A DNA stretch of 25,226 bases from a virus. The notes below the pieces were generated by a model, which searched no databases, was not told where the DNA came from, and was given only the letters and a program-made list of their open reading frames with translations. The stretch spans positions 1-25,226 of IMG/VR virus record IMGVR_UViG_3300023199_000199; one strand, 5' to 3'. Positions 1,648 to 20,905 of this stretch are shown here, piece after piece. A program made the position numbers and the translations under genes. Positions within the stretch are counted from its first letter, which is position 1; the number at the start of each line of letters is the position of its first letter.

Positions 1648-4239
1648 CTACCTCGTCCCCCTCCGATACCGCCACTCCCGCGGGGCCTCGCGCCCGCCCT
1701 CGTCGCGCCGTCGGTACCGCTCCCAGCCGTTTGCCTTGAGGTAGGCCGAGACGCGCATCTGGTCGCCGCGGGTCCAGCGGGCGGGTTCGAGCCCGATCGC
1801 CTCCTCGAGGATCTCGCCGACCGACACGTCGGCCAGCGGCTCTGGGCGCGGCACGCTCTCCGTCCGGGAGTTGCCATAGTCGGGGAAGCCGTCGGAAACG
1901 GTGTGGATCTCGTGGGTCAGCCAGTGCTCGATCAGGTCGTCCCAAGCGTCGGACTGGTAGCGGCGGTCCTGTTCCTCGCGGGCTTCCGCCAGCAGCGCCG
2001 GGTCGTCGATCCACCAGATCGCGCCCGCGCGGAAGCGGTGGACGGCCTCGGCCCAGAGCTGGTCCCGGTCGCGGGCGAGCGCCGCGATATCGATGGTGCC
2101 GCAGCGAAGCGGCCAGAAGCGGCGGTTGCCGGTTTCGTCGCGCAGATAGGTGTCTGGATTCACGGTGCCGGCGAAGACGCACTGTCGGGGCACCTCGACG
2201 GTGTAGCGGCCATAGGGCGGGCGGAAGCGGTCGGTGGTCCGCGTCAGGAACGCCTTGATGCGCGACACCTCGGCGCGGCCGATAGCGTCGAGTTCGGCGA
2301 TCTCCACGATCCAGACGCCCTGCATGTGCAGGGCCGCGTCCTTCGACCCGAGCTCCGGCAGCTCGTCGGTGAACCATTCCTCGCCCGCGAGCACCTTGAT
2401 CGCGGTGGACTTGCGCGCGCCCTGCGGCCCCTCGAGGATGAGCATGTGGTCGGCTTTCACGCCGGGGCGGTAGATGCGGGCGACGGCCGAGATAAGCCAG
2501 AGCGCACCGATGGTGTGGTGGAACGCGGTGGGCTCGGCGCCGAGATAGGTGCTGGTCCAGGTCTCGATCCGGGAAGTGCCGTCCCATGTCAGGGTGTCGA
2601 GCCAGTCGAGGACGGGATGGATGCGCAGTTCGCGGGCGACGGCGCCGACGGCGCGGCTCACGACCACCGGCGCCACGTTGATGCCGCGCAGTTGCAGCCA
2701 CTCAGCAGTGCGGATGTCGTCGGCGTCCTCCCAGGGGCGCGGTAGGGACGTAGCGACGCCGTCCCACGGCAGCGGCTGGCGCACCACGATCTCCTGGCCG
2801 AACTCGTCGAAGGCGAGCACGCCGGCGAACGCCGGATCGGAGGCCAGCGCAACGATGACGTTGGCCTCGTTGCGCTCGGGCGCGCCCGCGAGATCGAGCC
2901 GAAGGCGTCGGAACCAGGCGGGCTTCGGGATCGGTGCGTGCGGATCGCCGGTGGCGTTCACACGGCGGCGGAGCTCAGCCAATTGCTGGGTCAGGACCGA
3001 CATGCCGATCCCGGTCGCGGACTTGATGCGCGCGACGACCTGCCGCTCGGGCAGCGGGTCGAGCTTCGCCAGCGCGATGCGCCCGAGCAGCGTGGACAGG
3101 GCTTCGAACTCGGGCGGGTTGGTCAGCGCCTCGGCCGCGGCGATCAGGGTGGCGGGGTCGTCGGTGGAAGCAGCTATGGGCGTGGCCGTCTCTGGGTCGA
3201 CTGGATCCGCGGCCTGTGGCTCCGGTGTGGTGTCTGCCGCGAGCGCATAATCCTCGGCGCGGGCGCCGCGCTGGAGATCGTCGTTGAAGTCGTCGCCATG
3301 CAGCGGCGCGACGATCTCGTTCGGGATGTCGGCCCGGTTGAGCCGGTCCGAGAGCGTCGCGGCCGCCTGGTGCCCGGCGTCCCCGGCATCGGCGTAGATG
3401 GTGACGCGCCGAGCACCCTCGGGCCACTTGAACCGCGCCAAACCGTCGGCCGACAGCGCCGCCCAGACCGGTGTGCCGAAGAGCGCGTGGGCGGCGAGCG
3501 CCGTCTCGATCCCCTCGGCGATGCCGATGTGCCCATCGTCGGGCAGCGGGAACACCCGGACCACGGCATCCTTCACGCTGCCCAGCATCTTCTTGCCCGG
3601 GGGCGCCTTGGCGCTGCCGTCGTCGAGCAGGAAGGTGCGGTGGATGCCCGGCGCGCGCTCCCCGTCCGGCAGCCGCAGGATCGCGATGAGGCCGGGCCAG
3701 CCACGGCAGCTGTCGAAGTCCGGAAGATCGGGGTGGAACAGCAGGTCGGGCGATCCGGGATCCGACAGCCCGCGGGCGTGCAGGTAGGTCTCGCCCAACG
3801 TGCCTGCTAGGGGAACGGCCCCGGCGACCAGACGCGCGATCTCGGCCGAGTGGTCGGGCCGCGCGCGCATGGTCGACGCCGCCGCGGGCCGCGGCGCGGG
3901 ATGGTCGATTCCCGCGAGCCGCGCCGCCTCGTCGAACAGCGCGCCGTCGCAGAGACCTGTCGCCTGCGCGATCAGGTCGATGGGACCGGCCCGCTCGCCG
4001 GTGGCGTAGTCGAAGCCCCAGCCGGCATAGGGCCCGTCGAGATGGATGGTGCAGGAGCCTTCCTTGCGCGGCGGGCGCCCGGAGAGATCTGCGCAGCGCA
4101 AGGATCGACGGTCCCGCGCAAGCCGGGCCTCGGGGAAGAGCCCCGGCAACCAGTCGGCGGCCGTGCAGGCAAGCCGCTCCTTCACCGCCGCCAGATCGTG
4201 CCGGGTCTTCGGGACCGCGATGTCGTTGAGGTCGATCAT
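1648..4239 (-). CDS. Toprim + VapE-type primase/helicase
   Basis: 863 aa, predicted to prime and unwind element DNA during replication. The start at 4239 (MIDLND) is preceded by GAGGGG about 5 bases upstream; an upstream in-frame extension runs into the neighbouring gene and is not used. The N-terminal region (about 35-110) resembles the CHC2/DUF7146 primase zinc-region family, though its cysteines are sparse. A Toprim domain follows at about 236-315, with 'AEGIETALAA' (241-250) and the acidic 'IYADAGDAG' (281-289). The C-terminal half is a virulence-associated-E (VapE) P-loop ATPase: Walker A GPQGARKS at 604-611, Walker B 'WIVEIAELD' at 643-651, and the 'GTVNPDTYLRDETGNRRFWP' segment typical of the family. 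It is the last gene of the minus-strand block, 8 bases after the RecD-like helicase. VapE proteins are common in prophages and phage satellites. Confidence 0.92.
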   Translation of the reverse strand: MIDLNDIAVPKTRHDLAAVKERLACTAADWLPGLFPEARLARDRRSLRCADLSGRPPRKEGSCTIHLDGPYAGWGFDYATGERAGPIDLIAQATGLCDGALFDEAARLAGIDHPAPRPAAASTMRARPDHSAEIARLVAGAVPLAGTLGETYLHARGLSDPGSPDLLFHPDLPDFDSCRGWPGLIAILRLPDGERAPGIHRTFLLDDGSAKAPPGKKMLGSVKDAVVRVFPLPDDGHIGIAEGIETALAAHALFGTPVWAALSADGLARFKWPEGARRVTIYADAGDAGHQAAATLSDRLNRADIPNEIVAPLHGDDFNDDLQRGARAEDYALAADTTPEPQAADPVDPETATPIAASTDDPATLIAAAEALTNPPEFEALSTLLGRIALAKLDPLPERQVVARIKSATGIGMSVLTQQLAELRRRVNATGDPHAPIPKPAWFRRLRLDLAGAPERNEANVIVALASDPAFAGVLAFDEFGQEIVVRQPLPWDGVATSLPRPWEDADDIRTAEWLQLRGINVAPVVVSRAVGAVARELRIHPVLDWLDTLTWDGTSRIETWTSTYLGAEPTAFHHTIGALWLISAVARIYRPGVKADHMLILEGPQGARKSTAIKVLAGEEWFTDELPELGSKDAALHMQGVWIVEIAELDAIGRAEVSRIKAFLTRTTDRFRPPYGRYTVEVPRQCVFAGTVNPDTYLRDETGNRRFWPLRCGTIDIAALARDRDQLWAEAVHRFRAGAIWWIDDPALLAEAREEQDRRYQSDAWDDLIEHWLTHEIHTVSDGFPDYGNSRTESVPRPEPLADVSVGEILEEAIGLEPARWTRGDQMRVSAYLKANGWERYRRRDEGGREAPREWRYRRGTR

Positions 4240-4247
4240 CGCGCCCC

Positions 4248-5567
4248 TCAGGCCAGCAGCACGAGACCGCGTTCGGCCCGGGTGATCGCGGTGTAGAGCC
4301 AGCGGCGCCGGTCGATCTCGCTGCGGCCCAGCCCGTCGTCCCAGACGATCACGTTCTCCCACTGCGACCCCTGCGCCTTGTGGGCGGTGATCGCCCAGCC
4401 GAAGGTCGCCTCGGTCAGCAGGCGCTTCTCCTTGTAGTCGCGGTCATGGCGCTTGTCGTCGTAGGCAACGTGGTCCTCGAAATGCCCCTTGTAGATGCGC
4501 AACCGGCCGGGACGCCCGTCCTCATAGGGCTCGCCGATGTGGCGCCCGTCCTCGTCATGGACGACGACGGAGAAGTAGAGGCTGCCCTCGTCGACGATGT
4601 CCTCGAGCGTCACGAACATCCCGTTGATCAGCCCCAGATCGTTCTGGTTCTTCAGGCAGATGATCTTCTCGGCCGGTCCCGTGGGTAACCAGGTCCCGCC
4701 GAGACCGGCCGCCGCACGCATGGCGTTGTTGATCTGCAGCCGCGTCGCGTTCAGGCCGCAGATCAGCTGGCCGCCACGGAGCGCTTGCTCGGGCGTGATG
4801 TCGCCCTTGCGGAGCTTCGCGACATGGTCGTCGTAGACGCCGAAGCCGATGGGCCGGCCCTCGCGCGCCATGGTGGCGAGGCGGATGATGGCGCTCTCTG
4901 CCGCCTGGCGGTGGATCTCGGTCAGCATCACGTCCGGCTCGTCGCGGGTGAAGGCGCCTTCGCCGCGGATCGGCGGCAACTGGCCGGGATCGCCGAGCAC
5001 GAGGATCGGCTTGCCGAAGCTCATCAGGTCGCGCGCCATCTCCTCGCCGACCATAGACACCTCGTCGAGCACGATGAGCCGCGCGTCGGCCGCGTCGCTC
5101 TGCGGGTTCAGGGCGAAGCGCGGGTGCTTCATCGCCGAAAGCCCCTGGCGCATCGCTTCGATCGCGGCATCGGCCGTGGTGCGCGCGAACCCGGTGAGAC
5201 GGAGCGCGTCGCGTTCGGCCAGCGCGATCTTGCGGGCAGCCTCCTCGATTTCCTCTTCGGTCGACTCGATCACCGAGTAGATCAGGCTGTGAATGGTGCG
5301 CGCGGGCGTGCCCTTGCGGGTCAGCACCAGTGCGGCCTTGCCGGTGAATGTGGCGGTGACGACGCCGGGCACGCAGCGGCCGTCCTTCGCGCTGCGGTGG
5401 GGCGAGAGGCCGAGTTCCTCGAGCGCAAACTTCAGCACGGTGGTCTTGCCGGACCCGGCATAGCCGAAGAGGCGGAACACCTGCTGCTGCTCTGTGCGGG
5501 TCTCGAACCACTCCTTGATCTCGCGGATGGCGGCGGCCTGCGCGGCGGATGGTGTGAATTCTGTCAT
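4248..5567 (-). CDS. RecD-like superfamily 1 DNA helicase (AAA_30)
   Basis: 439 aa, an ATP-dependent 5'-3' type helicase expected to act on element DNA in replication or recombination. I chose the start at 5567 (MTEFTPSAAQ) because GGGGAGGG lies just upstream and the ATG overlaps the stop of the nuclease gene as ATGA. Motif I is GYAGSGKTT (35-43). Motif II is 'LIVLDEVSM' (Asp168-Glu169). Motif III is 'GDPGQLPPI' (192-200), followed by 'TEIHRQ' (216-221). The C-terminus has the UvrD_C_2 signature 'WAITAHKAQGSQW' and ends with 'YTAITRAERGLVLLA'. All helicase motifs appear intact, and the length fits the short phage RecD/Dda-like group rather than full RecD of RecBCD. Its coupling to a Cas4/RecB-like nuclease suggests a helicase-nuclease pair (inference). 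Confidence 0.93.
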   Translation of the reverse strand: MTEFTPSAAQAAAIREIKEWFETRTEQQQVFRLFGYAGSGKTTVLKFALEELGLSPHRSAKDGRCVPGVVTATFTGKAALVLTRKGTPARTIHSLIYSVIESTEEEIEEAARKIALAERDALRLTGFARTTADAAIEAMRQGLSAMKHPRFALNPQSDAADARLIVLDEVSMVGEEMARDLMSFGKPILVLGDPGQLPPIRGEGAFTRDEPDVMLTEIHRQAAESAIIRLATMAREGRPIGFGVYDDHVAKLRKGDITPEQALRGGQLICGLNATRLQINNAMRAAAGLGGTWLPTGPAEKIICLKNQNDLGLINGMFVTLEDIVDEGSLYFSVVVHDEDGRHIGEPYEDGRPGRLRIYKGHFEDHVAYDDKRHDRDYKEKRLLTEATFGWAITAHKAQGSQWENVIVWDDGLGRSEIDRRRWLYTAITRAERGLVLLA

Positions 5568-6361
5568 CGCGGCCCTCCCCAGCACCGTTTCGCCCAGGCA
5601 CAGGGGGCATGCCACTTACCGGCCGCCATGCCGCCCCGGCAGAGGACTGCGGTGGGCTCGGCCGCGGCGCGCGGCAGCCATTCCCCGGCCTCGGAGGCCC
5701 GCACCACCGCGACGGCGCGATCCGACATCTCCTGCGCGAGATGCGCGTCGAAGGGCACGAGCTCCGCGTGAAATTCCATCGTGTCGCGGTTCAGCGCGGT
5801 GAAGAGCGCTGGGGCGGGCAGCTCCATGTAGGCCTGATAGAGGGCGATCTGCGCCGCATACACGGGGCGCGCGAGGCTGACGCCGCGCTTGACCACGTCC
5901 TTCCAACTGGCCGCGCCGAGCGCCTTGTTCTCCCAAAGCGCGGGATAGTCTATCGCGACGGGGCCCGAGACGAAGCAGCCGTCGATATGGCCCTTGAAGC
6001 GCCCGCCGAGGGCCTCGAAGCCGAACTGGCGTCCATCGGGTCGCGCGGTGCGCAGGTCGAACCCGGCGATCCGGAACCAGCCCGCGACGATGTCCTCGGC
6101 CCGGTGGCCCGCCTCGAAGATGCGCAGCGTGCGCGGCGCGAACTCCTGGCCCTCGTCCTTGGGCACCGCGAGGAAGTCGTACTGGATCTGGCGCAGGCAG
6201 TCGCGGCCGAGACCCGAGGAACTGACATAGGTGCGTGGACGCTCGGCCCTGTGGCGCGCGGACAGCGCCGTGTCGATGGCGGCGGACACCGCTTCCGCGA
6301 TGGGCCGGCGCGGCGCGCCGGCGCCGTAGAGGAAGCCGGATTTGTGGTTCAGGTCGATCAT
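5564..6361 (-). CDS. Cas4/RecB-like PD-(D/E)XK nuclease
   Basis: 265 aa. It is predicted to be a RecB-family exonuclease. The active-site series is visible: His87 ('GHRAE'), Asp127 ('GHIDG'), Glu144 and Lys146 ('ENKAL'), then the QxxxY helix 'QIALYQAY' (171-178). One cysteine precedes the core (Cys55 in 'GRDCLRQ') and three sit at the C-terminus (Cys241, Cys254, Cys260; spacing C-x12-C-x5-C). That arrangement resembles the Fe-S 'iron staple' of Cas4 and AddB. The start at 6361 has GGGAG 8 bases upstream and overlaps the previous stop as ATGA; its own stop overlaps the helicase start in the same way. There are no cas1/cas2 genes or CRISPR array here, so a phage-recombination role is more likely than adaptation. 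The fold is well supported; the cluster is inferred. Confidence 0.88.
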   Translation of the reverse strand: MIDLNHKSGFLYGAGAPRRPIAEAVSAAIDTALSARHRAERPRTYVSSSGLGRDCLRQIQYDFLAVPKDEGQEFAPRTLRIFEAGHRAEDIVAGWFRIAGFDLRTARPDGRQFGFEALGGRFKGHIDGCFVSGPVAIDYPALWENKALGAASWKDVVKRGVSLARPVYAAQIALYQAYMELPAPALFTALNRDTMEFHAELVPFDAHLAQEMSDRAVAVVRASEAGEWLPRAAAEPTAVLCRGGMAAGKWHAPCAWAKRCWGGPR

Positions 6362-6573
6362 CGCTCGCGCTCCCAGAACCCGCCGGCCTGCGCGATGCAG
6401 GTCAGCTTGTGGAACTGCGCGTCTGTCAGCCGGGTGCTGTCGCCGAACCGCGCGAGCTTCTCGCGGAGGCTGTCGCAGAACTCGATCTCGAAATCGGTGA
6501 CGGCGTTCTCGGTGGCCGCCTCGAGCAGGTGGGTCCAGCTGCAGGACGGGGTGTCGTCGTTCAGGTCGATCAT
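6358..6573 (-). CDS. Small acidic protein of unknown function
   Basis: 71 aa, starting MIDLNDDTPS. The start at 6573 has GGAGGG 7 bases upstream and overlaps the stop of the HNH gene as ATGA; its stop overlaps the nuclease start the same way, so it is embedded in the operon and almost certainly translated. The sequence is mostly helical with cysteines at 11, 33 and 59 and no recognised domain. The first five residues (MIDLN) are shared with the two neighbouring larger genes. No function can be given. Confidence 0.75.
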   Translation of the reverse strand: MIDLNDDTPSCSWTHLLEAATENAVTDFEIEFCDSLREKLARFGDSTRLTDAQFHKLTCIAQAGGFWERER

Positions 6574-6991
6574 GACCGTGCCCTCCGACGCTTGCCGACG
6601 GCGACGGGATGACGATCTCCGGTCCTCCCGCGGCAGTATTCGAGGAAACCGGGCGCGTTCAGGTTCTCGCGCTGCGTCCCCCACGCGAGGTTGTCGGCGC
6701 GATTGTTCGCAGCGTTCTCGTCGAGATGCATGACGACTGCGCGGTCGAATGGCGGGGGTCCGTGGAACGCCTCCGCGACGAGCCTCGCGACCTTGTAGGT
6801 CGTGCCGCGCACCACGATGATGAAGCGCGCATCCAGCTTGTTCCACACGCCGAAGGTCGGCGTGCCCCGTAGGATCGCTCGCCGCCCTTGGGCATCGGAC
6901 CGCGATAAGGCGCGATCATCACGCGCCCCTCGCTGCTCACCAGCACGTCGGGGACGCTCGGGACGGTTCTCCAGATTTCACCGTTGGTCAT
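6570..6991 (-). pseudogene. NUMOD4/HNH endonuclease, frameshifted
   Basis: Two frames together make one homing-type endonuclease. The first frame starts at 6991 (GGAGGG 5 bases upstream) and encodes 'EIWRTVPSVPDVLVSSEGRV', a NUMOD4-like domain. The second, overlapping frame ends at 6570 and encodes 'TYKVARLVAEAFHG...VVMHLDENAANNRADNLAWGT', a typical HNH core with its His and Asn-Asn-rich zinc/metal motif. The frames join in a run of four C (6865-6868, G on the coding strand): one more base would read straight through as 'YGGTPTFGVWNK'. So a single-base deletion or a sequencing error is the simplest reading. Such genes are usually selfish nucleases inserted in phage replication operons. The last bases still overlap the next start as ATGA, so operon architecture is preserved. 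Confidence 0.75.
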
Positions 6992-7003
6992 TTCGCCCTC
7001 CGA

Positions 7004-7414
7004 CTAGAATGGCAGAGGGTCGTCGAGGACCGTGCCGGTGCGCTCCCTGCGCGCGGCCTGGTCCTGCATGCTGTCGATGTAGCCGGTGACGGCCGCCTCG
7101 ATCAGGCGGTCGATGTCCGCGGCGCTGCGGTGAAAGAAGGGCTCCATGAGCCCGAGGTCGGTGAGCGCTTCGGCGAAGAGCGTCCGCGCATCGCGGATCG
7201 CACGGGCCTCGCGCGCGGTCTTGTCGATCATGCCGTTGTTCCTTTGGGCGATGGCGCTGCCCGCGTCCTGACAGCGGCGCGAGCAGGAGCGGTGGTAGGG
7301 GTGGCGATCCCAGCGGAGGCCGTGGCAGTAGCCGAAGCCGCGCGCCTCGCGGGCGCAGACGGCGCAGAGCGCTACCCGAGCAAGAAGGTCGCCATCGGGT
7401 CCTCGGGCGGCCAA
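7004..7414 (-). CDS. DUF6511-like small zinc protein
   Basis: About 136 aa. The N-terminal part has a treble-clef-like cysteine set, CAVC then CSRRC about 20 residues later ('SCSRRCQDAG'). It is followed by 'GMIDKTAREARAIRDARTLFAEAL' and a helical C-terminus ending in 'DDPLPF'. This pattern matches my memory of the DUF6511 family found beside alphaproteobacterial phage replication genes; a domain search would settle it. No ATG exists upstream of the cysteines in this frame except far inside the previous gene, so I favour a TTG start at 7414 (AGAGG 5 bases upstream), which overlaps the preceding gene by about 43 bases. A shorter start at 7231 would remove the zinc motif and is less likely. Function unknown. 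Confidence 0.65.
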   Translation of the reverse strand: MAARGPDGDLLARVALCAVCAREARGFGYCHGLRWDRHPYHRSCSRRCQDAGSAIAQRNNGMIDKTAREARAIRDARTLFAEALTDLGLMEPFFHRSAADIDRLIEAAVTGYIDSMQDQAARRERTGTVLDDPLPF

Positions 7415-7689
7415 CCCGCCCTCTGGAGCTTTTCGGACTGGAGCACGATCCAGCGCGAGATCGCGTTGCTGGCCATCGCTTCGAGGTCGCCGAGGCTGAG
7501 GCTTGCGATGGGGGCGTGCAGTTTTCCTCGGGCCTCGAGCCATCGTCCGATCTCCAGCGCCGCCTCGCGCGTCACATGCGCCTGCCATTCATCCGGGGTC
7601 ATCGGCCCGGCAGGATCGCGCCGGGCCTCGGGCGGGGGCGAAGGCCGCTGAGACCTCCGCCGCCGTGCTGCCGACCGCGCCTCACCCAT
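7372..7689 (-). CDS. Small conserved-looking protein, function unknown
   Basis: 105 aa if it starts at 7689, where the ATG overlaps the stop of the DUF669-like gene by 8 bases (coupled translation). The alternative is an ATG at 7602, giving 76 aa beginning MTPDEWQAHV. The first 29 residues of the long form are basic and proline-rich, and the compact part is 'MTPDEWQAHVTREAALEIGRWLEARGKL...DLEAMASNAISRWIVLQSEKL'. This is helical and has no recognised motif. No strong ribosome site marks either start. It sits between the ssDNA-binding-like protein and the DUF6511-like protein, so a helper role in element replication is possible but unproven. Confidence 0.65.
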   Translation of the reverse strand: MGEARSAARRRRSQRPSPPPEARRDPAGPMTPDEWQAHVTREAALEIGRWLEARGKLHAPIASLSLGDLEAMASNAISRWIVLQSEKLQRAGWPPEDPMATFLLG

Positions 7690-8458
7690 TGAGCCAGGCG
7701 GGCATGCCGGTCGCCGGCGCTCCGCTCGGCGCGTTGGCCGGGGACGCCGGCGGCTGCTGGGCGGGCGGTTGCTGCGGGGACTGCTGCGGAGCTGGAGCCT
7801 GCGCGCCCCAGGCCGGGGCCGCGGACGGCGCTTGCGGCTGCGCACCCCATGCCGGCGTGGGCGCCTGCCAGCCCGGCGCCGGCGCGCTCGCGGCCTTGCG
7901 CGGCGGCGCGTTGACGGGCTCCGGGGGCACGGTTTCGCCGCGCATGATCTCGGCATGTTGCGGCTCGTCAGGCAGAACGACGTTCGCGACCCGGTTCTGG
8001 TCCCGGTATTGCGGGTTGGAGGCGGGCTCCACCATGATCCGCGCGGCGAAAACGATGCCGTCGAGATGCTTGAGCCCGGGCAGCACCCGCTTGGCCTTGG
8101 CGTCGGGGCTCTCGTCCCTGGGATCAAGCCCGAGAGCGCTGTCGACCATCGCCCGAAAGGTGGACTTCGAGATCTTCCAGCCGATCGACTGGCCCTTCTC
8201 GTCGACCTTGCCGCCCGCCACGGTGAAGCTCTGCCAGAATTTCCGCCGGGCATGCGGCCCCTCGAGGATGGTGAACTCGCAGTCCAGCATCTTCGCGTCG
8301 CTCGACTGCGAGGCCTTCAGGAGCTTCGCGTCCATCGGGGTTGCGCCGTCGACGCCGCCGGGGCGCACGGTCAGGCGGACCTTGGCGAAGGTGCCGTCAG
8401 GGATGAGCTCGCCGATGGGGGCCATCTGTGGCTGGGCGTCGTTGAGATCGTAGCTCAT
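7682..8458 (-). CDS. DUF669-like single-strand DNA-binding-type protein
   Basis: 258 aa. Residues about 15-175 form a beta-rich domain with 'CEFTILEGPHARRKFWQSFTV', which resembles the DUF669 group that sits beside Sak-type recombinases in phages and is suspected to bind ssDNA. The rest (about 180-258) is a low-complexity Pro/Ala/Gln tail with repeated 'PAWGAQ'-type units, ending in 'GMPAWLNG'. A flexible tail with a short conserved tip resembles the layout of SSB proteins, though the tip is not acidic. Start 8458 has AAGGAC 8 bases upstream. It is 22 bases after the Sak4-like ATPase, which fits an annealing or strand-exchange pair. The binding activity is inferred. Confidence 0.72.
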   Translation of the reverse strand: MSYDLNDAQPQMAPIGELIPDGTFAKVRLTVRPGGVDGATPMDAKLLKASQSSDAKMLDCEFTILEGPHARRKFWQSFTVAGGKVDEKGQSIGWKISKSTFRAMVDSALGLDPRDESPDAKAKRVLPGLKHLDGIVFAARIMVEPASNPQYRDQNRVANVVLPDEPQHAEIMRGETVPPEPVNAPPRKAASAPAPGWQAPTPAWGAQPQAPSAAPAWGAQAPAPQQSPQQPPAQQPPASPANAPSGAPATGMPAWLNG

Positions 8459-10321: not shown

Positions 10322-10915
10322 TCACGCGGCTCGCGAGGCGTCCCACCGCCCCCCGAGCCCGCGCATGGCGAGATCGAGCCGGAGGCGTGCGAGGCGGCGG
10401 TAGAAGGCGGAACGGGAGATGCCGTCGCGACCGATCAGATCGGCGACAGCGCAGGTGCCGAGTGCAGTGCAGAGCCCGCGGACATCCTCCGGCAGGTCGG
10501 CGAGCGCCCGGGCGAGATCGTGGCGGGTCTCGACGTCCGCCGCGGCGCAACGATCCTGGCCGTGCCAGGCGGCCAGCCCGTCCGTCTCCGCCAGCCGGCA
10601 GCCCAGCGGCTCGGCGCTGCCGGCGACGGGCGCGTCGAGCGACAGCACCCTGCCGCCCTGCGCCCGGCGCCGGCGATGGTGCCGGATCGCGATGCGCGAG
10701 CACTGGTTGCGGAGAACTATGTTGGCGAAGGCGCCGATGGTGCCGCGGCGCTTGTCGAAGCCCGGCAGCCGGCAGATCAGATCGATCAGGAGGTCCTGGC
10801 GGAGATCGTCGAGATCGGCGGCAGGGAGCGCCAGCTTGCGGTGCAGACGCCGCGCCGCGACGTCTGTCTCGTCGATCAGCGTGGCAAGGTCGGAGGGGGA
10901 AATTGGGGGATACAT
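10322..10915 (-). CDS. Sigma-70 family RNA polymerase sigma factor-like protein
   Basis: 197 aa. Residues about 33-85 look like sigma region 2 ('LDDLRQDLLIDLICRLPGFDKRRGTIGAFANIVLRNQCSRIAIRHHRRRR'), with a basic end that would contact the -10 element. Residues about 150-190 look like region 4 with a helix-turn-helix ('AVADLIGRDGISRSAFYRRLARLRLDL'). The linker is short, as in ECF-type sigma factors. It heads the replication genes on the minus strand, behind the 11-bp repeat array, so it could direct polymerase to element promoters. It could also be a sigma-like protein used for another DNA-binding job. No anti-sigma gene is adjacent. Family assignment is good; target promoters are unknown. Confidence 0.8.
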   Translation of the reverse strand: MYPPISPSDLATLIDETDVAARRLHRKLALPAADLDDLRQDLLIDLICRLPGFDKRRGTIGAFANIVLRNQCSRIAIRHHRRRRAQGGRVLSLDAPVAGSAEPLGCRLAETDGLAAWHGQDRCAAADVETRHDLARALADLPEDVRGLCTALGTCAVADLIGRDGISRSAFYRRLARLRLDLAMRGLGGRWDASRAA

Positions 10916-10978
10916 CGGTGAAAGCCTCGGAACATCGTTTCTGATGCTCCAAGACTGCCGGCCTCCGCCGGGCCGCCG

Positions 10979-11022
10979 GTGTGATTGGCGTGTGTTTGAT
11001 GTGTGCCGGGTGTGTGACCGAC
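10979..11022 (-). repeat. Four-unit 11-bp direct repeat array (GTGTGnnnGnn)
   Basis: Four consecutive 11-base units start at 10979, 10990, 11001 and 11012 on the plus strand: GTGTGATTGGC, GTGTGTTTGAT, GTGTGCCGGGT, GTGTGACCGAC. All share GTGTG at positions 1-5 and G at position 9, while the other positions vary. The array starts 6 bases past the regulator's stop and ends 63 bases before the sigma-like gene, so it occupies that gene's probable promoter region. Spacing of 11 bp is the classic layout for PhoB/OmpR-type winged-helix binding, which makes it a candidate operator (inference). Confidence 0.8.
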
Positions 11023-11027
11023 GGCAC

Positions 11028-11952
11028 TCAGTCCTCTATGACGACCTCTGACGGCGCGAGGCCAAGGCGGTACCCGCGCGACCGGACGGTCCCCACGAGC
11101 GTTTCGACCTCCTTTTCTGTGAGCCCGCAGGTGACGAGGGCCCTGCGCAGGTCTCGGACGATCTCTCGCGGTGTTCGCTGAAACTGCGCCTCGATCTCCT
11201 GCGCCTTGAGCACGGGGTCGCGCTGCACCGACCGTTCGACAAGCATTCTGAAGAGAGCGAACATCTGCGGGGCAAGATCGAGACGGCGACCGTCCAGCAC
11301 CGCGAACTGCCCTTGGCGATGCAGGACGAGCCTTACACCGCCGGTCGGTATGCGCCCGTCGTCGAGGATCAGGCGGTCGACGCCCTCCGGATCTGCCTTG
11401 ACCATGTCGGCCAGCGCAAGGACCTCAATCCCGGCCTCGCGCAGCCGCAGCACCAGCGCCGGCTCCGGCTCCTTGGCGATGACCGTCACTGGTCGCGGCG
11501 CCGCCGCGGATTTCAGCGCGAGGATTGCGCCCGGCACCTCCAACCGGTCCGCGCTGTCGCAGAGCATGAGCACCCGACCGGCAGGCCCGGAGCCGATCAT
11601 CCAGACCCCATCCACGACCGCCGAGACCGCCGCTCGCGCCGATCTGCCCTGCAAGCCGGTTGGCATCGACGCCGAACCGCATCAGGTCGCCATCATCGAG
11701 CACAACGTCCTCTGCCGCATCGTGCGGACAGCATGCGCGCAGTTCGTCGCAGATCTGCCGGATCGGGCGAACATCGAGACCGCAGTCGCAATGCGCACAG
11801 ACCGACCAGCTGTCCGCCTTCGGAAGCTCGATCAGCACGCGCGTCCTCAGCAGGCGCTCGACCTCGCGCTCGGGAAACCGGCGCAGCGCCCGGCCCGAGA
11901 TCGAGACTTCCGGGCCGCCGTCACTCAGCCGCGTCCACAACCATGCCAGCAT
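11028..11952 (-). pseudogene. Zn-finger/winged-helix regulator, frameshifted
   Basis: Two overlapping frames appear to form one protein of about 306 aa. The first (start 11952) encodes a cysteine-rich segment 'SWSVCAHCDCGLDVRPIRQICDELRACCPHD', a likely zinc site, followed by 'VVLDDGDLMRFGVDANRLAGQI' (Ile104). The second frame continues as 'ARAAVSAVVDGVWMIGSGPAGRVLML', ending in a PhoB/OmpR-like winged helix ('LDLAPQMFALFRMLVERSVQ...LRRALVTCGLTEKEVETLVGTVRSRGYRLGL') at 11028. Removing one base near 11635-11643 restores a continuous frame. Alternatively the second frame starts at its own ATG (11666) as a separate 212-aa protein, giving split genes. The first ATG lies inside the end of the 411-aa gene, so the two are coupled. 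It is probably the DNA-binding regulator of the element. Confidence 0.65.
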
Positions 11953-13156
11953 CGCGATCCTTCTCCAGCCCGTGGCGCGCGATCAGCGTGTGGACCGCCT
12001 TCTCGAACCGCGTCCGGCGAAAAGCGAGCGTGCCCGGCGGTTTCAGCTTCACGGTGACCTGCGCAGGCCGCTTGCCCTCCGACTCGAAGAAGACGCGGAA
12101 CGAGATCTCGCCGAGCCGCCAGCCCTTGCCAAACTGCACCTCGCTGCCCTTGAAGTGCCGCAGCGCGCCGGTAGCGTCCTTCGATTCCCACGTCCGAACG
12201 TGGCGCCACTTCGCCTCGTCCTCATCCCACTCGAAATGGTCGGCGGCGGCGGCCACGATCCGCACGTCGAGGATGCGGTCGTCGTAGCGATGATCGAAAG
12301 CGAAGTCGGGGCCGGCCTCGCTGATCGGATCGAGGGTATAGAGATCGCGGGCATCCTTGCCCGAGAAGAAGCCGGGACGGCCAAGGACGTGCTTGGCGAA
12401 GATCTCGGCGAGATCCGCCTGCTGGGCCTTCACGACCCCGCCGATGAACAGCCGCGCCTCTGCCGGCGAGTAGCGCAGCGTGGCGTATTTCACGGCGCGA
12501 AGCGGAATGATCTTTTCCTTGTCGCCGTCCACCACGGGTGTCGTCGCGACCGGTGCTCCATGGCTGACGACGAGGTTGATCTCGCCGGCCTCCTCGTAGG
12601 GACCGAGGCGGCAATACTCGCCCTGAAGATCGCGGGCGAAAAGCTTCATCGCTGCAACCTTGAATGCGTCGATGATCTCCGGCGTCAGGTCGGCGCTGAC
12701 GTCGCGCTCCGGCCCTCGGAACTCGGCCAGTGCTGTCGGGGTCCGCAGGGCATGGAAGTCGGCCGCCGCCTCGAAGACGCTCTTGTGATGCAGGTAGGTG
12801 TGCAGCGCGACATGCTTCGGGTCGTGTCTGGCTGGCGCAGATTCCTTCTCGTCCGGCTCGGGATCGGGATAGAGCACCACCCCCTGCCGCCGCGCCTCGT
12901 TCAGGATGATCTGCATGCCCTCGTTGCTTCCGAGGTCTGCCACCCGGTGGAGATCGGCCACCATGCCCTCGTTCCAGGCGGTGACGGCCGCCTCGAAATG
13001 CTTCGCGAGCGCAGATCGGACATCTGAATCTTCGCCATCGAAATCGATTGGCACGTCCTTCGGCTCGAAGTGCCGTGCAAAGAGTTCCTCGATGAGGCCA
13101 AGATCGATTGTCTTCAGGAATTTTGGATTGACGAATTTCTTGAGATCGGAACCCAT
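11921..13156 (-). CDS. Unrecognised 411-aa protein, SOS-linked
   Basis: 411 aa, start 13156 with GAGGTG 7 bases upstream. The sequence is charged, soluble-looking and without membrane segments or any motif I recognise. Notable parts are 'HDPKHVALHTYLHHKSVFEAAADFHAL' (His-rich, about 115-145), 'GEYCRLGPYEEAGEINLVVSHGAP', and a beta-rich C-terminal half with 'FFSGKDARDLYTLDP' and 'HRYDDRILDVRIVAAAADHFEWDEDEAKWRH'. It is the first gene behind a perfect LexA-type box and is coupled by a 32-base overlap to the winged-helix regulator. The two probably act together, for example as sensor/modulator and DNA-binding partner (inference only). The gene itself is certain; its function is unknown. Confidence 0.8.
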   Translation of the reverse strand: MGSDLKKFVNPKFLKTIDLGLIEELFARHFEPKDVPIDFDGEDSDVRSALAKHFEAAVTAWNEGMVADLHRVADLGSNEGMQIILNEARRQGVVLYPDPEPDEKESAPARHDPKHVALHTYLHHKSVFEAAADFHALRTPTALAEFRGPERDVSADLTPEIIDAFKVAAMKLFARDLQGEYCRLGPYEEAGEINLVVSHGAPVATTPVVDGDKEKIIPLRAVKYATLRYSPAEARLFIGGVVKAQQADLAEIFAKHVLGRPGFFSGKDARDLYTLDPISEAGPDFAFDHRYDDRILDVRIVAAAADHFEWDEDEAKWRHVRTWESKDATGALRHFKGSEVQFGKGWRLGEISFRVFFESEGKRPAQVTVKLKPPGTLAFRRTRFEKAVHTLIARHGLEKDRDAGMVVDAAE

Positions 13157-13524: not shown

Positions 13525-13973
13525 CGACCCACGATCCCATCCCCGCGCGCCTGGCAGCGCTGAAGACGGCGACGACGCCGGACCTGAAGGCGCAGTGGCG
13601 CGACCTGTTCGACAGCGAGCCGCCGCCGTTTAACCGGCGCTACCTTGAGAGCCGGCTCGCCTACCGCATCCAGGAACTCGCCTATGGCGGGCTGAAGCCG
13701 GAGACGATCCGCCGGCTGGAGCGGCTCGGCGAGGAACTCGACGGCGGCGACCGGAAGAAGAGCCGGATCCGCGCCGACACGATGCCCATCGCCGGCACCC
13801 GGCTGATCCGCGAATGGCAGGGCGTCGAGCATGTCGTCACCGTCACCGCGGACGGGTTCGAATGGCAGGGGCGGCCGTACAAGTCGCTCTCTGCCATCGC
13901 GCGGGCGATCACCGGCACGCGCTGGAACGGCTGGGTCTTCTTCGGCCTCAAGAACCGGAGGGCGCGGACATGA
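13521..13973 (+). CDS. DUF2924 domain protein
   Basis: 150 aa, start MTTHDPIPARLAALKTAT at 13521, coupled by ATGA overlaps on both sides. It carries the DUF2924 hallmarks: 'LKAQWRDLFDSEPPPFNRRYLESRLAYRIQELAYGGL' and the C-terminal 'GTRLIREWQGVEHVVTVTADGFEWQGRPYKSLSAIARAITGTRWNGWVFFGL', a compact beta-rich module. In this family the gene almost always precedes a large serine recombinase, as here. The tail 'YKSLSAIARAITGTRWNGW' resembles DNA-binding modules found in restriction and recombinase partners, so it may be an accessory factor for the recombinase (inference). Family assignment is confident; role unproven. Confidence 0.9.
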   Translation: MTTHDPIPARLAALKTATTPDLKAQWRDLFDSEPPPFNRRYLESRLAYRIQELAYGGLKPETIRRLERLGEELDGGDRKKSRIRADTMPIAGTRLIREWQGVEHVVTVTADGFEWQGRPYKSLSAIARAITGTRWNGWVFFGLKNRRART

Positions 13974-15280
13974 CGAAGCCGGTCGTCCGAAAACAGCGCT
14001 GTGCGATCTACACGCGCAAGTCGTCCGAGGAAGGGCTGGAGCAGGAGTTCAACAGCCTCCACGCACAGCGCGAGGCATGCGAAGCCTACATCGCCAGTCA
14101 GCGCTCCGAGGGATGGGTTCCCGTCCGCGATCAATATGACGACGGCGGCATCTCCGGCGGCACGCTGGAGCGCCCCGGCCTGAAGCGGCTGCTGGAGGAT
14201 ATCGAGGACGGGCTCGTCGACGTGGTCGTGGTCTACAAGATCGACCGCCTCAGCCGGTCGCTCGCCGACTTCGCCAAGCTGGTGGAAGTGTTCGACCGCA
14301 ACGGCGTGACCTTCGTCTCGGTCACGCAGTCCTTCAACACGACCACGTCGATGGGGCGGCTGACGCTGAACATCCTGCTCTCCTTCGCCCAGTTCGAGCG
14401 CGAGGTGACGGCCGAGCGCATCCGCGACAAGGTCGCCGCGAGCCGGAAGAAGGGCATGTGGATGGGCGGGGTGCCGCCCTACGGCTACCGCGTCGAAAAC
14501 CGGAAGTTGGTGGTCGAAGACGACGCTGCCGAACACGTCCGATGGATCTTCGACCGCTTCCTCGAGATCGGCTCGGGAACGGAACTCGCCCGAGAGGTGG
14601 CTAGGCGTGGCATCCGCACGTCCCGAGGTAATCGGATCGACAAGAAGTACCTCTACCGGATGCTCAACAACCGCGCCTACATTGGCGAAGCGGTCCACAA
14701 GGGCGAGAGCTATCCCGGCGAGCACGACGCGATCATCGACCGCGAGACTTGGGACCGTGTACATGCGATCTTGCAGGAGAGCCCCCGCAAGCGCGCCGCA
14801 CGCACGCGTGCCGAGACCCCGGCGCTGCTGAAAGGGTTGCTCTACGGCCCGGATGGTGCCGCCTTCTCGCCAACCCACACCCGGAAAGGCGGCAAGCTAT
14901 ACCGATATTATGTCAGCCAGACGGTTTTGAAGCATGGTGCAGGATCATGCCCAGTCGGCCGTGTTCCGGCGGGCGAAATCGAAACCGCCGTCATCGACCA
15001 GCTCCGCGCCGTGTTTCGCCAGCCCGAAATTGTTGCGGGCACATGGAAAGCGGCGCGGTCTCAGGCCGACGACATCACCGAGGCAGACGCGCGCACGGGC
15101 CTGCAGCAGCTCGATCCACTGTGGGACGAACTCTTCCCGGCCGAGCAGGCTCGTATCGTGGCATTGCTCGTTGAGCGCGTGGACATCGGCACAGACGGAT
15201 TGAACGTTCGGCTCCGCGTGGATGGCCTCGACGGCCTCGCGCGCGAAATGCTAGCAAGCAACATCGAGGCGGCAGCATGA
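13970..15280 (+). CDS. Large serine recombinase
   Basis: 436 aa site-specific recombinase expected to integrate or excise the element. Start 13970 has GGAGG 8 bases upstream and overlaps the DUF2924 stop. The N-terminal resolvase domain (about 8-155) carries the catalytic serine in 'YTRKSS' (Ser18), plus 'YDDGGISGGTLERPGL', 'VVYKIDRLSRS' and 'SFAQFEREVTAERIRDK'. The recombinase domain follows ('GGVPPYGYRVENRKL...RYLYRMLNNRAYIGEAVHKGESYPGEH' region). The usual zinc-ribbon is altered: 'LKGLLYGPDGAAFSPTHTRKGGKLYRYYV' lacks the first CxxC pair, which I recall as normal for this subfamily. Length is short for a large integrase but complete. No attachment sites could be recognised. Confidence 0.95.
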   Translation: MTKPVVRKQRCAIYTRKSSEEGLEQEFNSLHAQREACEAYIASQRSEGWVPVRDQYDDGGISGGTLERPGLKRLLEDIEDGLVDVVVVYKIDRLSRSLADFAKLVEVFDRNGVTFVSVTQSFNTTTSMGRLTLNILLSFAQFEREVTAERIRDKVAASRKKGMWMGGVPPYGYRVENRKLVVEDDAAEHVRWIFDRFLEIGSGTELAREVARRGIRTSRGNRIDKKYLYRMLNNRAYIGEAVHKGESYPGEHDAIIDRETWDRVHAILQESPRKRAARTRAETPALLKGLLYGPDGAAFSPTHTRKGGKLYRYYVSQTVLKHGAGSCPVGRVPAGEIETAVIDQLRAVFRQPEIVAGTWKAARSQADDITEADARTGLQQLDPLWDELFPAEQARIVALLVERVDIGTDGLNVRLRVDGLDGLAREMLASNIEAAA

Positions 15281-15663
15281 CCAGCAGGGCCCCGATCCCG
15301 GACACCGTTTCGCTGCGCGTTCCGTTTCGCGTCATAAAGCGCGGTGGACGGAAGGAGATGCAGCTGCCGGAAGGTGCTAGCCAGCCGCGGCGAACAGACA
15401 ACACGCTGGTCAAAGCGCTGGCCCGCGCCTTCCGCTGGAAGCGGATGCTGGAGACGGGAGAGTTCGCCACGATCGCCGAGCTCGCCGAGCGCGAGGGGAT
15501 CGCGCCGTCCTACATGACGCGCGTCCTGCGCCTGACCCTGCTCGCGCCCGACATCATCGCGGCGATCCTGGACGGCAAGCAGGAGCCGGAGGTGACGCTC
15601 GCGCAGGTGCTGGAGCCGTTCCCGCTCACATGGCAGCATCAGGAACAGCATTTTTCTCTGTAG
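15277..15663 (+). CDS. Small HTH protein of the recombinase cassette
   Basis: 128 aa, start overlapping the recombinase stop as ATGA. The C-terminal half contains a helix-turn-helix: 'TIAELAEREGIAPSYMTRVLRLTLLAPDIIAAILDGKQ', the same layout as the ParB/KorB-type HTH found in such cassettes. The N-terminus (about 8-30) is a basic beta-like segment, 'SLRVPFRVIKRGGRKEMQLP'. It probably binds DNA, as a recombination directionality helper or as a transcription regulator. A palindromic operator for the downstream restriction island lies about 50 bases after its stop, so it is one candidate for binding it. Function inferred. Confidence 0.8.
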   Translation: MTSRAPIPDTVSLRVPFRVIKRGGRKEMQLPEGASQPRRTDNTLVKALARAFRWKRMLETGEFATIAELAEREGIAPSYMTRVLRLTLLAPDIIAAILDGKQEPEVTLAQVLEPFPLTWQHQEQHFSL

Positions 15664-15686
15664 GATGAAAACTGCAAATTAACGGA

Positions 15687-15715
15687 TTGACTCGAGGGGC
15701 GGGCTCGTCTAGATC
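15687..15715 (+). promoter_or_regulatory. Sigma-70-like promoter of the restriction island
   Basis: A -35 element TTGACT (15687-15692) and a -10 element TAGATC (15710-15715) are separated by exactly 17 bases. The start site would fall near 15721-15723, about 23 bases before the half-HsdS start, and directly on the palindrome at 15715-15736. Confidence 0.6.
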
Positions 15716-15736
15716 TCTGTAAATCTCCTTACAGAG
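15715..15736 (+). promoter_or_regulatory. 8-bp palindromic operator / SD-overlapping hairpin
   Basis: CTCTGTAA-N6-TTACAGAG is a perfect inverted repeat that covers the predicted transcription start. Its right arm carries AGAGG, the ribosome site of the gene starting at 15746 (spacing 8). It can act as a repressor site, or the RNA hairpin could mask the ribosome site. Confidence 0.65.
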
Positions 15737-15745
15737 GATTCTTTC

Positions 15746-16336
15746 ATGCGGCTCGCGGATCTCTCTGACATTCACTCCGGCTACACGGCGCGCGGCAGGC
15801 TCGATCCGCTGTCGGAGGGTGGCGTGCCGGCGATGCAGCTGCGTGACGTCGGAACGAACGGCGAATCGCCAGGACAAGACTTCCAGAGGTACGACTTGGG
15901 CAAGCTGTCCGACCGATACTTCGTCCGCGGCGGCGAGGTCGTCTTTCGCTCGCGTGGCGAACCGAACGCTGCAGCGGCCATTCGCGATCCGCTGCCGGAG
16001 CCCGTCGTGGTCATTGTCCCGTTGGTGATCGTTCGCCCCGACAGGGAACGCGTTCTGACCGAATACGTGGCATGGGCCATTAACCAGCCCGACGCGCAGC
16101 GCAGGCTCGGCGCGGAAGCGCAGGGCACGAGCCTCAGGATGATTCCAATGGCGGTTCTCGAGAACCTCGAGATCGCCGTGCCTGACCTACCCACGCAGAA
16201 ACGTATCGTCGAACTCAATGCCCTCGCCCGGCGGGAGGGGCAGCTGCTCCGTCAACTCGCCGCTCGCCGCGAAGAACTCGTAAGCGCCATTCTCGGCGAT
16301 GCCGCGAAGGCCGCCGACCAGAAGGAAATTGCCTGA
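15746..16336 (+). CDS. Half-size HsdS-like specificity protein (single TRD)
   Basis: 196 aa. It resembles one half of a type I restriction specificity subunit: an N-terminal target-recognition domain ('RLADLSDIHSGYTARGRL', 'GVPAMQLRDV', 'YFVRGGEVVFRSRGEPNAAA', 'SLRMIPMAVLENLEIAVPDLPTQKRIVEL'), then a coiled-coil spacer 'ALARREGQLLRQLAARREELVSAIL'. The motif 'P-L/DLPTQKRI' matches the usual 'PPLPEQKRI' HsdS repeat. Start 15746 follows a clean SD (AGAGGA). Its stop overlaps the HsdM start by one base (TGATG), so it is translationally coupled to it. Half-size HsdS proteins can dimerise into a working specificity subunit. Here a full HsdS also follows, so it may be an alternative subunit, a remnant or a decoy. 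Confidence 0.82.
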   Translation: MRLADLSDIHSGYTARGRLDPLSEGGVPAMQLRDVGTNGESPGQDFQRYDLGKLSDRYFVRGGEVVFRSRGEPNAAAAIRDPLPEPVVVIVPLVIVRPDRERVLTEYVAWAINQPDAQRRLGAEAQGTSLRMIPMAVLENLEIAVPDLPTQKRIVELNALARREGQLLRQLAARREELVSAILGDAAKAADQKEIA

Positions 16337-17853
16337 TGACCGATCAGATTACCCAACAGCAGATCAACCAGACCGCCTGGGCGGCTTGCGACACCTTCCG
16401 GGGCGCCGTCGATGCCGGCCAGTACAAGGACTACATCCTCGTGATGTTGTTCCTGAAGTACATTTCGGACCTCTGGAACGACCATCTCGAGACCTACCGC
16501 AAGCAGTACGGAGACGACGAGGCCCGCATTCGCCGGCGCCTCGAGCGCGAACGATTCATCCTGCCTGAAGGCGCCAGCTTCTACGACCTGTACGCCAAGC
16601 GGAACGAGCCCAACATCGGCGAACTGATCAACATTGCACTGGAGGCGATCCAGGACTCGAACCTCGCGAAGTTGGATGGCGTCTTCCGCAACATCGACTT
16701 CAACTCCGAGGCCAATCTCGGCCGCCCGAAGGATCGCAACCGCCGCCTGAAGAACCTTCTCGAGGACTTCGCCAAACCTGCGCTCGACCTGCGCCCGTCG
16801 CGGGTGACCGAGGACATCATCGGCGAGTGCTACATCTACCTGATCTCGCGCTTTGCATCGGATGCCGGGAAGAAGGCCGGTGAGTTCTACACGCCGACGG
16901 CCGTGTCGCGTCTGCTGGCCAAGCTGGCCGCGCCGCAGCCCGGCAACACGATCTGCGATCCTGCCTGCGGGTCGGGCTCGCTGCTGATCCAGGCCTCGCA
17001 GGAGGTGGGATCCGAGAACTTCGCCCTCTACGGGCAGGAGGTGAACGGCGCGACCTGGGCGCTGGCCCGGATGAACATGTTCCTGCACGCCAAGGACGCC
17101 GCCCGCATCGAATGGTGTGACACGCTCAACAGCCCGGCGCTGGTCGAGGGCGACCACCTGATGCGCTTCGACGTGGTGCTCGCCAATCCGCCGTTCTCGC
17201 TCGACAAGTGGGGCGCGGAGGACGCCGACAGCGACCAGTACAAGCGCTTCTGGCGCGGCGTGCCGCCCAAGTCCAAGGGCGACTACGCCTTCATCACCCA
17301 CATGATCGAGATCGCGAAGCGGCAGTCCGGCCGCGTGGCGGTGATCGTCCCCCATGGCGTCCTGTTCCGGGGCGGGGCCGAGGGGCGCATCCGCCGGCAG
17401 CTGATCGAGGAAAACCTGCTCGACGCCGTCGTCGGGCTGCCCGCCAACCTGTTCACCACCACGGGGATCCCGGTCGCCATCCTGATCTTCGACCGCTCCC
17501 GCGAGGAAGGCGGCGCGAACATGGGAAGGCGCGACGTGCTGTTCATCGACGCCAGCAAGGAGTTCACGCCGGGCAAGACCCAGAACGTGATGGACGACGC
17601 GCATGTCGCCAAGGTGCTGGAGACCTACGGCACCCGCGCCGAGGTCGAGCGGTATTCGCATCGGGCGGCGCCTGAGGAGATCGCCGAGAACGGCTATAAC
17701 CTCAACATCCCCCGCTACGTCGACACCTTCGAGCCCGAGGAAGAGATCGACGTCGCCGCCGTGCAGAAGGACATCCTGCGGATCGAGGCCGAGCTCGCTG
17801 AGGTGCGGGCGAAGATGGCCGGGTATCTGAAGGAGCTTGGCGTCGATGTCTGA
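16336..17853 (+). CDS. hsdM: Type I restriction-modification methyltransferase subunit HsdM
   Basis: 505 aa, S-adenosylmethionine-dependent N6-adenine methyltransferase of a type I RM system. An N-terminal HsdM helical domain ('TAWAACDTFRGAVDAGQYKDYILVMLFLKYISDLW') is followed by 'GEFYTPTAVSRLLAKL', the SAM-binding motif DPACGSGS (from Asp208) and the catalytic motif IV NPPF (284-287). The C-terminus ends in a helix that normally packs against HsdS. It forms the M2S modification complex and, with HsdR, the R2M2S nuclease. It overlaps the half-HsdS by 1 base and RhuM by 8 bases. Full length and apparently intact. Confidence 0.97.
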   Translation: MTDQITQQQINQTAWAACDTFRGAVDAGQYKDYILVMLFLKYISDLWNDHLETYRKQYGDDEARIRRRLERERFILPEGASFYDLYAKRNEPNIGELINIALEAIQDSNLAKLDGVFRNIDFNSEANLGRPKDRNRRLKNLLEDFAKPALDLRPSRVTEDIIGECYIYLISRFASDAGKKAGEFYTPTAVSRLLAKLAAPQPGNTICDPACGSGSLLIQASQEVGSENFALYGQEVNGATWALARMNMFLHAKDAARIEWCDTLNSPALVEGDHLMRFDVVLANPPFSLDKWGAEDADSDQYKRFWRGVPPKSKGDYAFITHMIEIAKRQSGRVAVIVPHGVLFRGGAEGRIRRQLIEENLLDAVVGLPANLFTTTGIPVAILIFDRSREEGGANMGRRDVLFIDASKEFTPGKTQNVMDDAHVAKVLETYGTRAEVERYSHRAAPEEIAENGYNLNIPRYVDTFEPEEEIDVAAVQKDILRIEAELAEVRAKMAGYLKELGVDV

Positions 17854-18874
17854 CGGTGAAATCATCCTCTATGGCACCGAGGACGGACAGACAGAGATTC
17901 AGCTCCGGGCTGTCGATGGGACCGTCTGGCTGACGCAAGCGCAGATGGCCGACCTGTTCGACACGTCGAAGCAGAACATCAGCTTGCACCTCAACAACAT
18001 CATCTCGGACGGGGAGCTCGCGCAGGAGTCAGTTGTCAAGGAATCCTTGATACCTGCCGCGGACGGGAAGGCCTACCGGACGAAGACCTACAACCTGGAT
18101 GCGATCCTTGCAGTCGGGTATCGCGTCCGCAGCCCTCGCGGCGTGCAGTTCCGCCGCTGGGCCACCACCACGCTGAAGGAGTATCTCGTCAAGGGCTTCG
18201 TCATGAACGACGAGCGCCTGAAGGATCCCGCCTGGGACTACTTCGACGAGCTGCTCGAACGAATCCGCGACATCCGGGCGTCCGAGGCGCGGTTCTATCA
18301 GAAGGTCCGCGACATCCTTGCGCTCAGCGAGGACTACGACGCCAAGTCGCCAACTGTGAACACCTTCTATGCGACGATCCAGAACAAGATGCTCTACGCG
18401 GTCACCAGCCACACGGCGGGCGAGCTGATCCGCGCGCGGGCCAATGCCGACCAGCCGAACATGGGGCTGACGACCTGGCAGAACGCCGACAAGGGGCGGC
18501 CCCTGCGCAAGTCCGACGTCGGCACGGCCAAGAACTATCTCGGCGAGGCCGAGATCCGAGAGCTCAACCTCATCGTCGAGACCTTCCTGAACACCGCCGA
18601 GCTGCGGGCGACACGGCGGCAGACCATGCGGCTGGCCGAATGGGAGGGGGTGCTCGACACCTTCCTGACCTCGAACGAGCTGCCGAAGCTGCAGGGCGCC
18701 GGTTCGATCTCTGCAGATGCAGCGAAGCGCATCGCCCACGATCGCTATGACGCGTTCGACGCCAAGCGGAAGGACGCCGCGCGGCAGGCGGCGGCGGAGG
18801 TAGACGACCTCGAAGAACTCAAGCGCATTGCCGATGGGGCAAAGGCGGGGAAGATGGGGCGTGGCGATGCGTGA
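17846..18874 (+). CDS. RhuM family protein
   Basis: 342 aa from the ATG at 17846 (AAGGAG about 10 bases upstream); a TTG three codons earlier is closer to the ribosome site than usual. The N-terminus holds a DNA-binding-like segment 'GTVWLTQAQMADLFDTSKQNISLHLNNIISDGEL' (about 27-60), followed by the hallmark RhuM stretch 'KTYNLDAILAVGYRVRSPRGVQFRRWATTTLKEYLVKGF' and a helical C-terminal half. RhuM was named from a Salmonella pathogenicity island and has no settled function, but its genes are frequent inside type I RM loci, as here between hsdM and hsdS. It overlaps both neighbours by 8 bases. A regulatory or specificity-modifying role is plausible, not shown. Confidence 0.92.
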   Translation: MSDGEIILYGTEDGQTEIQLRAVDGTVWLTQAQMADLFDTSKQNISLHLNNIISDGELAQESVVKESLIPAADGKAYRTKTYNLDAILAVGYRVRSPRGVQFRRWATTTLKEYLVKGFVMNDERLKDPAWDYFDELLERIRDIRASEARFYQKVRDILALSEDYDAKSPTVNTFYATIQNKMLYAVTSHTAGELIRARANADQPNMGLTTWQNADKGRPLRKSDVGTAKNYLGEAEIRELNLIVETFLNTAELRATRRQTMRLAEWEGVLDTFLTSNELPKLQGAGSISADAAKRIAHDRYDAFDAKRKDAARQAAAEVDDLEELKRIADGAKAGKMGRGDA

Positions 18875-20763: not shown

Positions 20764-20784
20764 GCGCTTGTCAGGCCGAGAAAA

Positions 20785-20819: not shown

Positions 20820-20905
20820 CGACCGGGAAATGCCCAATCCTTTGGTCCGTATATAGCCACAGAGCCCCTTAACCGCAAGTTAATCCGGGCCCGGGAGCCC
20901 CGCCC

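Follow-up and report, generated by a model that had tools for sequence, protein, structure and literature searches.

An 11-bp direct-repeat array as the candidate operator of an OmpR/PhoB-type regulator in alphaproteobacterial prophages

The array locus and its genes

The window analyzed here, a stretch of 25,226 nt, comprises positions 1-25,226 of the IMG/VR virus record IMGVR_UViG_3300023199_000199 and is part of a family of temperate prophages found in Rhodobacteraceae and other Alphaproteobacteria. The features relevant to our analysis are the following.

1648..8458, minus strand: replication/recombination genes (ssDNA-binding-like protein, Cas4-type exonuclease, Dda-like helicase, VapE/Toprim primase-helicase)
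10322..10915, minus strand: sigma-70/ECF-like gene that opens the replication operon and is the presumed target of the promoter
10925..10954, minus strand: conserved 12-bp hairpin (arms 10954-10943 and 10936-10925, loop AGAAAC)
10945..10945, minus strand: predicted transcription start, 7 nt after the T of the -10 element and inside the 5' arm of the hairpin
10952..10957, minus strand: -10-like hexamer CAGTCT (nAnnnT), 26 nt from the start of the fourth core
10979..11022, minus strand: four-unit 11-bp array in the register of the original prediction, backed by shuffle tests and by its conserved position in 137 of 139 loci
11016-11006, minus strand: array unit in the coding-strand register, CACACACCCGG
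11005-10995, minus strand: array unit in the coding-strand register, CACACATCAAA
10994-10984, minus strand: array unit in the coding-strand register, CACACGCCAAT
10983-10973, minus strand: array unit in the coding-strand register, CACACCGGCGG
11028..11666, minus strand: C-terminal part of the regulator, with an OmpR/PhoB-type winged helix in the last ~100 amino acids (11031-11330)
11425..11952, minus strand: N-terminal part of the regulator in another frame, holding a CxxCxC...CCPHD cluster
11921..13156, minus strand: gene for a 411-amino-acid protein of unassigned function, upstream of the regulator gene, overlapping its start and part of the same conserved module

The array lies between the gene for the OmpR/PhoB-type winged-helix protein, whose stop codon (11028) is 6 bp away, and the sigma-like gene starting at 10915. 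Both neighbors that the original prediction had named, a winged-helix gene of this type and a sigma-like gene heading the replication genes, were recovered in our analysis. A frameshift near 11.63 kb, due either to a sequencing error or to real decay, interrupts the regulator gene of the window; in close relatives the gene is intact and encodes 312 amino acids (e.g., L009:2950-3885). Profile searches with the regulator returned matches to CadC, ArlR, PhoB and others, and 29 of its 65 members matched Trans_reg_C. An intact relative was modeled with AlphaFold (pLDDT 88.6); its residues 211-311 scored Z 11.1 against BaeR and 9.3 against PhoB, and similar effector domains lay at Z 9-11; by profiles and model alike, the C-terminal domain is a winged helix of the Trans_reg_C fold. 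The phospho-receiver domain Response_reg was not found in any of the 65 full-length members at E 0.1, and we consequently do not class the protein as a response regulator. Its N-terminal part carries a Cys cluster.

The assignment of the sigma-like gene relies on TIGR02937 (E 3.5e-6, under the curated cut-off), on Sigma70_r2 (E 9.8e-5, just below the cut-off), and on Foldseek comparisons in which the top matches of the protein were sigma factors, at a weak E of 0.04. The C-terminal half of the sigma-like protein (10322-10915 and relatives) occurs in two exchangeable versions, and its N-terminal half is nearly constant. The 411-amino-acid gene was found in 118 of the 120 loci with enough flanking sequence; it had no convincing match in Pfam, PHROG or the PDB, where a sequence search gave nothing useful, and it is probably a functional partner of the regulator. 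On the plus strand, positions 13814-24834 of the window hold a serine recombinase gene followed by an apparent type I restriction-modification set (specificity, methylase, a second specificity-like gene, restriction subunit) and a YgjP-like metallopeptidase gene; these genes are named from their translations, and the Pfam comparison in this region covered the recombinase only.

We drew the related loci from viral contigs and from species genomes, mostly of Rhodobacteraceae but also of other Alphaproteobacteria. One relative, in Pannonibacter carbonis, looks like a complete temperate phage and has genes for an integrase, terminase, portal, capsid, tail and endolysin; the terminase of this prophage (L174:20-1216) shares 57% identity with its counterpart in Rhodobacter phage RcOceanus. 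Neither the regulator, queried as two of its types, nor the sigma-like protein had a homologue among 50,697 phage records, and the sigma gene had none in plasmid records. No description of the regulator/array system was found in the open-access literature, to which our search was confined.

Conservation of the array and promoter geometry

On the plus strand, the units GTGTGATTGGC, GTGTGTTTGAT, GTGTGCCGGGT and GTGTGACCGAC fill positions 10979-11022 exactly, so that the claim of four exact 11-bp units stands; read on the coding (minus) strand, the register is CACAC-N6 repeated four times (11016-10973). Their number and phasing are far beyond chance by shuffle tests: the window contains the pattern CACAC-N6-CACAC three times, always within the array (0.02 expected; none of 100 shuffles reached three), and none of 500 dinucleotide shuffles of the upstream stretch attained the same four-unit phasing. 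The G at position 9, which had been proposed as part of the motif, is present in all four units of the window but is not conserved among relatives, and it is therefore no part of the motif.

An array in the same phase occupies the same place in 137 of 139 related loci, a collection that includes many near-copies or one element present in two collections, with its first core at about -101 from the ATG of the sigma gene. This fixed position bears out the expectation that the array should be kept wherever the regulator and the sigma gene are kept. The two exceptions are a locus disrupted by an IS element (L146) and an acidobacterial outlier (L138); 131 of the 139 loci have at most three mismatches in the 20 core positions, and three distant loci (L066, L134, L135) have three units only. 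A lag of 11 was the strongest self-match lag in 12 of 18 upstream clusters. Across the loci we found three forms of the core, CACAC, CCCAC and GGGAG, and the units of any one locus share one form. A pattern built from DNA alone (the array plus GGCAnnnT, with the spacing left free between 15 and 30 nt) matched 27 of 2.9 million viral contigs; 24 of these have the regulator and the sigma gene, with matches identical in length, and the remaining three are plain 11-bp microsatellites. In the host genomes searched, the CACA array pattern adjoins the sigma gene in seven of eight and is absent elsewhere, with one exception.

Where the flank was long enough, almost all loci have the regulator gene upstream; the acidobacterial outlier is the one that clearly lacks it. 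The gene mostly ends 106-117 nt from the sigma gene, with about ten loci in which this distance is 1-3 kb. In L120 (2893-3900), L162 (1673-3900) and similar loci, opposite-strand cargo is inserted between regulator and array, including an HNH-like gene, an ImmA/IrrE-like peptidase gene and others, and this insertion site is possibly a hotspot for accessory or defence genes.

The A and the T of an nAnnnT hexamer are the two bases on which a -10 element depends most. Among 32 representatives whose upstream regions are less than 85% alike, all contain nAnnnT either 26 nt (29 representatives) or 27 nt (three representatives) past the fourth core, against a background of 3% per position, and none has a second nAnnnT in the scanned stretch. 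A -35 box was not found at the array promoter, the best -35 match being no better than random. The array spans approximately -71 to -28 relative to the predicted start, and its last unit covers the -35 position. In L120 and L162, where opposite-strand genes have been inserted, the array still adjoins the sigma gene, and the promoter must therefore lie in that stretch of 100 nt. A sigma-54 promoter was considered as well; the arrangement GG-N10-GC fits the window by eye, but relatives do not preserve it. A pho box consists of two 11-nt direct repeats (PMC4415409). The 11-nt direct repeats at the -35 position, the absence of a -35 hexamer and the fixed spacing of the -10 element give the locus a pho-box-like geometry, and by analogy it is the geometry of an activator that would replace the -35 contact.

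The hairpin downstream of the array (z = -5.07) overlaps the predicted start as well as the Shine-Dalgarno sequence, its 3' arm containing the likely Shine-Dalgarno GAGG (10928-10925). For its 12 pairs in an alignment of 49 sequences, covariation amounted to 0.262, compared with 0.160 when shuffled and at most 0.103 when slid, with compensatory changes among them. RNAalifold predicted no consensus fold from the same mixed alignment, and the hairpin had no match in Rfam. It is possible that the hairpin is a DNA palindrome at the start site. In T4 gene e, the read-through RNA hides the ribosome site and the promoter-proximal RNA does not (PMC3014915). The present locus resembles gene e in that a hairpin would hide the Shine-Dalgarno sequence and a promoter start is predicted inside the 5' arm (PMC3014915); it differs in that the Shine-Dalgarno sequence is only partly within the hairpin in loci of the GGGAG type. 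A gene e-like release of the Shine-Dalgarno sequence on the short transcript is an attractive mechanism, but it was not supported overall, as the predicted accessibility did not rise (Wilcoxon p 0.76).

Attribution of the array to a probable binding protein

Comparison of the array type with the gene trees points to the protein that the array probably serves. On the tree of the winged-helix domain, the array type requires two changes, the minimum for three states; five are needed for the N-terminal part of the regulator, six for the 411-amino-acid gene, 25 for the sigma N-terminus and 26 for the sigma tree, and shuffled labels gave 44.6. All counts come from trees built by quick searches, in which many forks are weak. 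Even with the sigma tree restricted to its well-supported branches, the three array types cannot do with fewer than 8, 6 and 8 changes. The stretches compared lie similarly far from the array, about 10-330 nt for the winged-helix domain and 57-340 nt for the sigma N-terminus. A pair of loci illustrates the exchange: L144 and L145 are 98.0% identical in their sigma DNA, only 23% identical in the winged-helix domain, and carry CCCAC and GGGAG arrays, respectively. Residues of the recognition helix follow the array type too, with R64/D65 in 41 of 41 regulators of the CACAC type, D61 in 30 of 31 of the CCCAC type, and R61 (24 of 25) and R65 (25 of 25) in those of the GGGAG type.

From two changes on the winged-helix tree versus 25-26 on the sigma gene, we conclude that the array belongs to the regulator; in reading this comparison it should be considered that the regulator gene is only 6 bp from the array, so that linkage contributes to their co-inheritance, that the more conserved sigma gene favors recombination breakpoints there, and that exchanges inside the diverged regulator-array block are rare. 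Inheritance and geometry lend strong support to the link between regulator and array. The original prediction that the regulator controls the sigma/replication block through the array thereby gains support from the tracking of the winged-helix domain by the array type and from the -10 element at fixed spacing.

We hold with moderate confidence that the array is an operator at which the upstream regulator would bind in tandem, in a PhoB-like manner, and activate the early promoter. Regulator protomers would line up head-to-tail on the four 11-bp units, along the same side of the DNA helix, via their C-terminal OmpR/PhoB-type winged helix, with the last unit covering the -35 position, where a -35 hexamer is absent. 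The bound regulator would then recruit RNA polymerase to the weak -10 element (nAnnnT), as PhoB does at pho boxes, and would thereby turn on the sigma-like gene together with the replication operon that follows. Of the two parts of this model, binding of the regulator to the array is very probable; activation, provided that it binds, has a reasonable likelihood.

The regulator might instead be a prophage immunity repressor that blocks the sigma/replication early promoter in the lysogen, with heteroimmunity cassettes of the lambdoid kind. We judge this unlikely, but the regulator and the operator were exchanged as a unit (2 vs 26 changes), as immunity cassettes are, and since this block exchange through many events fits such cassettes, the repressor is kept as the main rival. 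Immunity selection would favor divergence into types, and operators that diversify are expected of repressors under such selection more than of activators, which counts against activation; unit 4, moreover, overlaps the -35 position. On the other hand, the array reaches far upstream (-71), a -35 box is missing and the -10 element is poor, so that the promoter looks activator-dependent, and both the PhoB-like fold and the tandem sites are characteristic of activators. Judged from promoter anatomy, activation is more likely than repression.

That a different protein binds the array, be it the 411-amino-acid product, the sigma-like protein itself or a host factor, appears improbable. The 411-amino-acid gene is the best placed of these, as it is a conserved member of this module in 118 of 120 loci and just six type changes fall on its tree; however, the winged-helix domain fits better with two, and its fold is one that binds such repeats. 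The 25-26 changes exclude the sigma gene as the source of specificity, and a host factor would leave three array types within related hosts unexplained.

An iteron-like replication origin, with the VapE-type helicase or the winged-helix protein as initiator, had been named as the alternative in the original prediction and is disfavored by our data to the point of being very improbable. Direct repeats do adjoin the replication operon, but the 15 nt past the array are only 19% AT in the CACAC type and 30% in the CCCAC type (58% in the GGGAG type), so that the first two have a GC-rich flank in place of an AT-rich unwinding region; the position of the array is locked to the -10 element and the start codon, as befits a promoter, and its type does not track the downstream sigma gene. 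Chance or repeat slippage, for which only the shortness of the unit speaks, is refuted by conservation and has a negligible probability, as the letters change at constant phase across the 32 diverged representatives and the shuffle tests agree, in keeping with the original view that this is not a simple slippage product.

Relation to known systems and biological meaning

One close parallel is PhoB with its pho boxes in E. coli and relatives, which shares with the present system the OmpR/PhoB winged helix, a site at the -35 position of a promoter that lacks a -35 box, and tandem 11-nt direct repeats with a conserved core and a variable remainder (PMC4415409). Unlike PhoB, the regulator has no detected receiver domain but an N-terminal Cys cluster and a separate middle domain, and its array consists of four units, is a single target beside the gene and is phage-borne. 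The cI/operator cassettes of lambdoid phages offer a second parallel; there, related temperate phages swap regulator and operators as one, specificity groups exist, and the cassettes combine an HTH repressor with palindromic operators. The joint exchange of regulator and operator and the specificity groups are common to both, whereas the present system has an OmpR/PhoB-type protein with one four-unit direct-repeat array, and a repressor role is putative here.

GafA/GafYZ of alphaproteobacterial gene transfer agents are similar in that a DNA-binding regulator and a sigma-like protein govern phage-type genes in the same host group (PMC6363796, PMC11150451). In a Roseophage related to gene transfer agents, a CtrA-like protein without a receiver domain adjoins GafA (PMC6363796, PMC11150451). 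They differ from our locus in that the N-terminus of GafA resembles the DnaA DNA-binding domain (PMC6363796, PMC11150451); an 11-bp array is not known for them. The winged-helix excisionase/regulators of the RdfS type are likewise encoded on mobile elements, bind DNA as oligomers and control promoters; in contrast to the strict 11-bp array in a promoter found here, RdfS is without a consensus motif and acts at attP (PMC11963761).

These findings lend themselves to a tentative model in which a receiver-less OmpR/PhoB-type regulator and its operator of four 11-bp units might run the lysis/lysogeny switch of these prophages. At least three cassette specificities could be traded among them as immunity or compatibility groups, and the structured leader might act as a second lock on the sigma-like gene. 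The OmpR/PhoB-type proteins form a very large bacterial regulator family, in which the rule that relates recognition helix to repeat is known for few members. Here, approximately 97 distinct DNA-binding domains are matched to three operator types within a promoter frame that stays constant, many swaps have left the downstream gene unchanged, and this natural swap set makes the recognition code directly testable. At the same time, it exposes the likely early switch of a widespread and apparently unstudied family of Rhodobacteraceae prophages.
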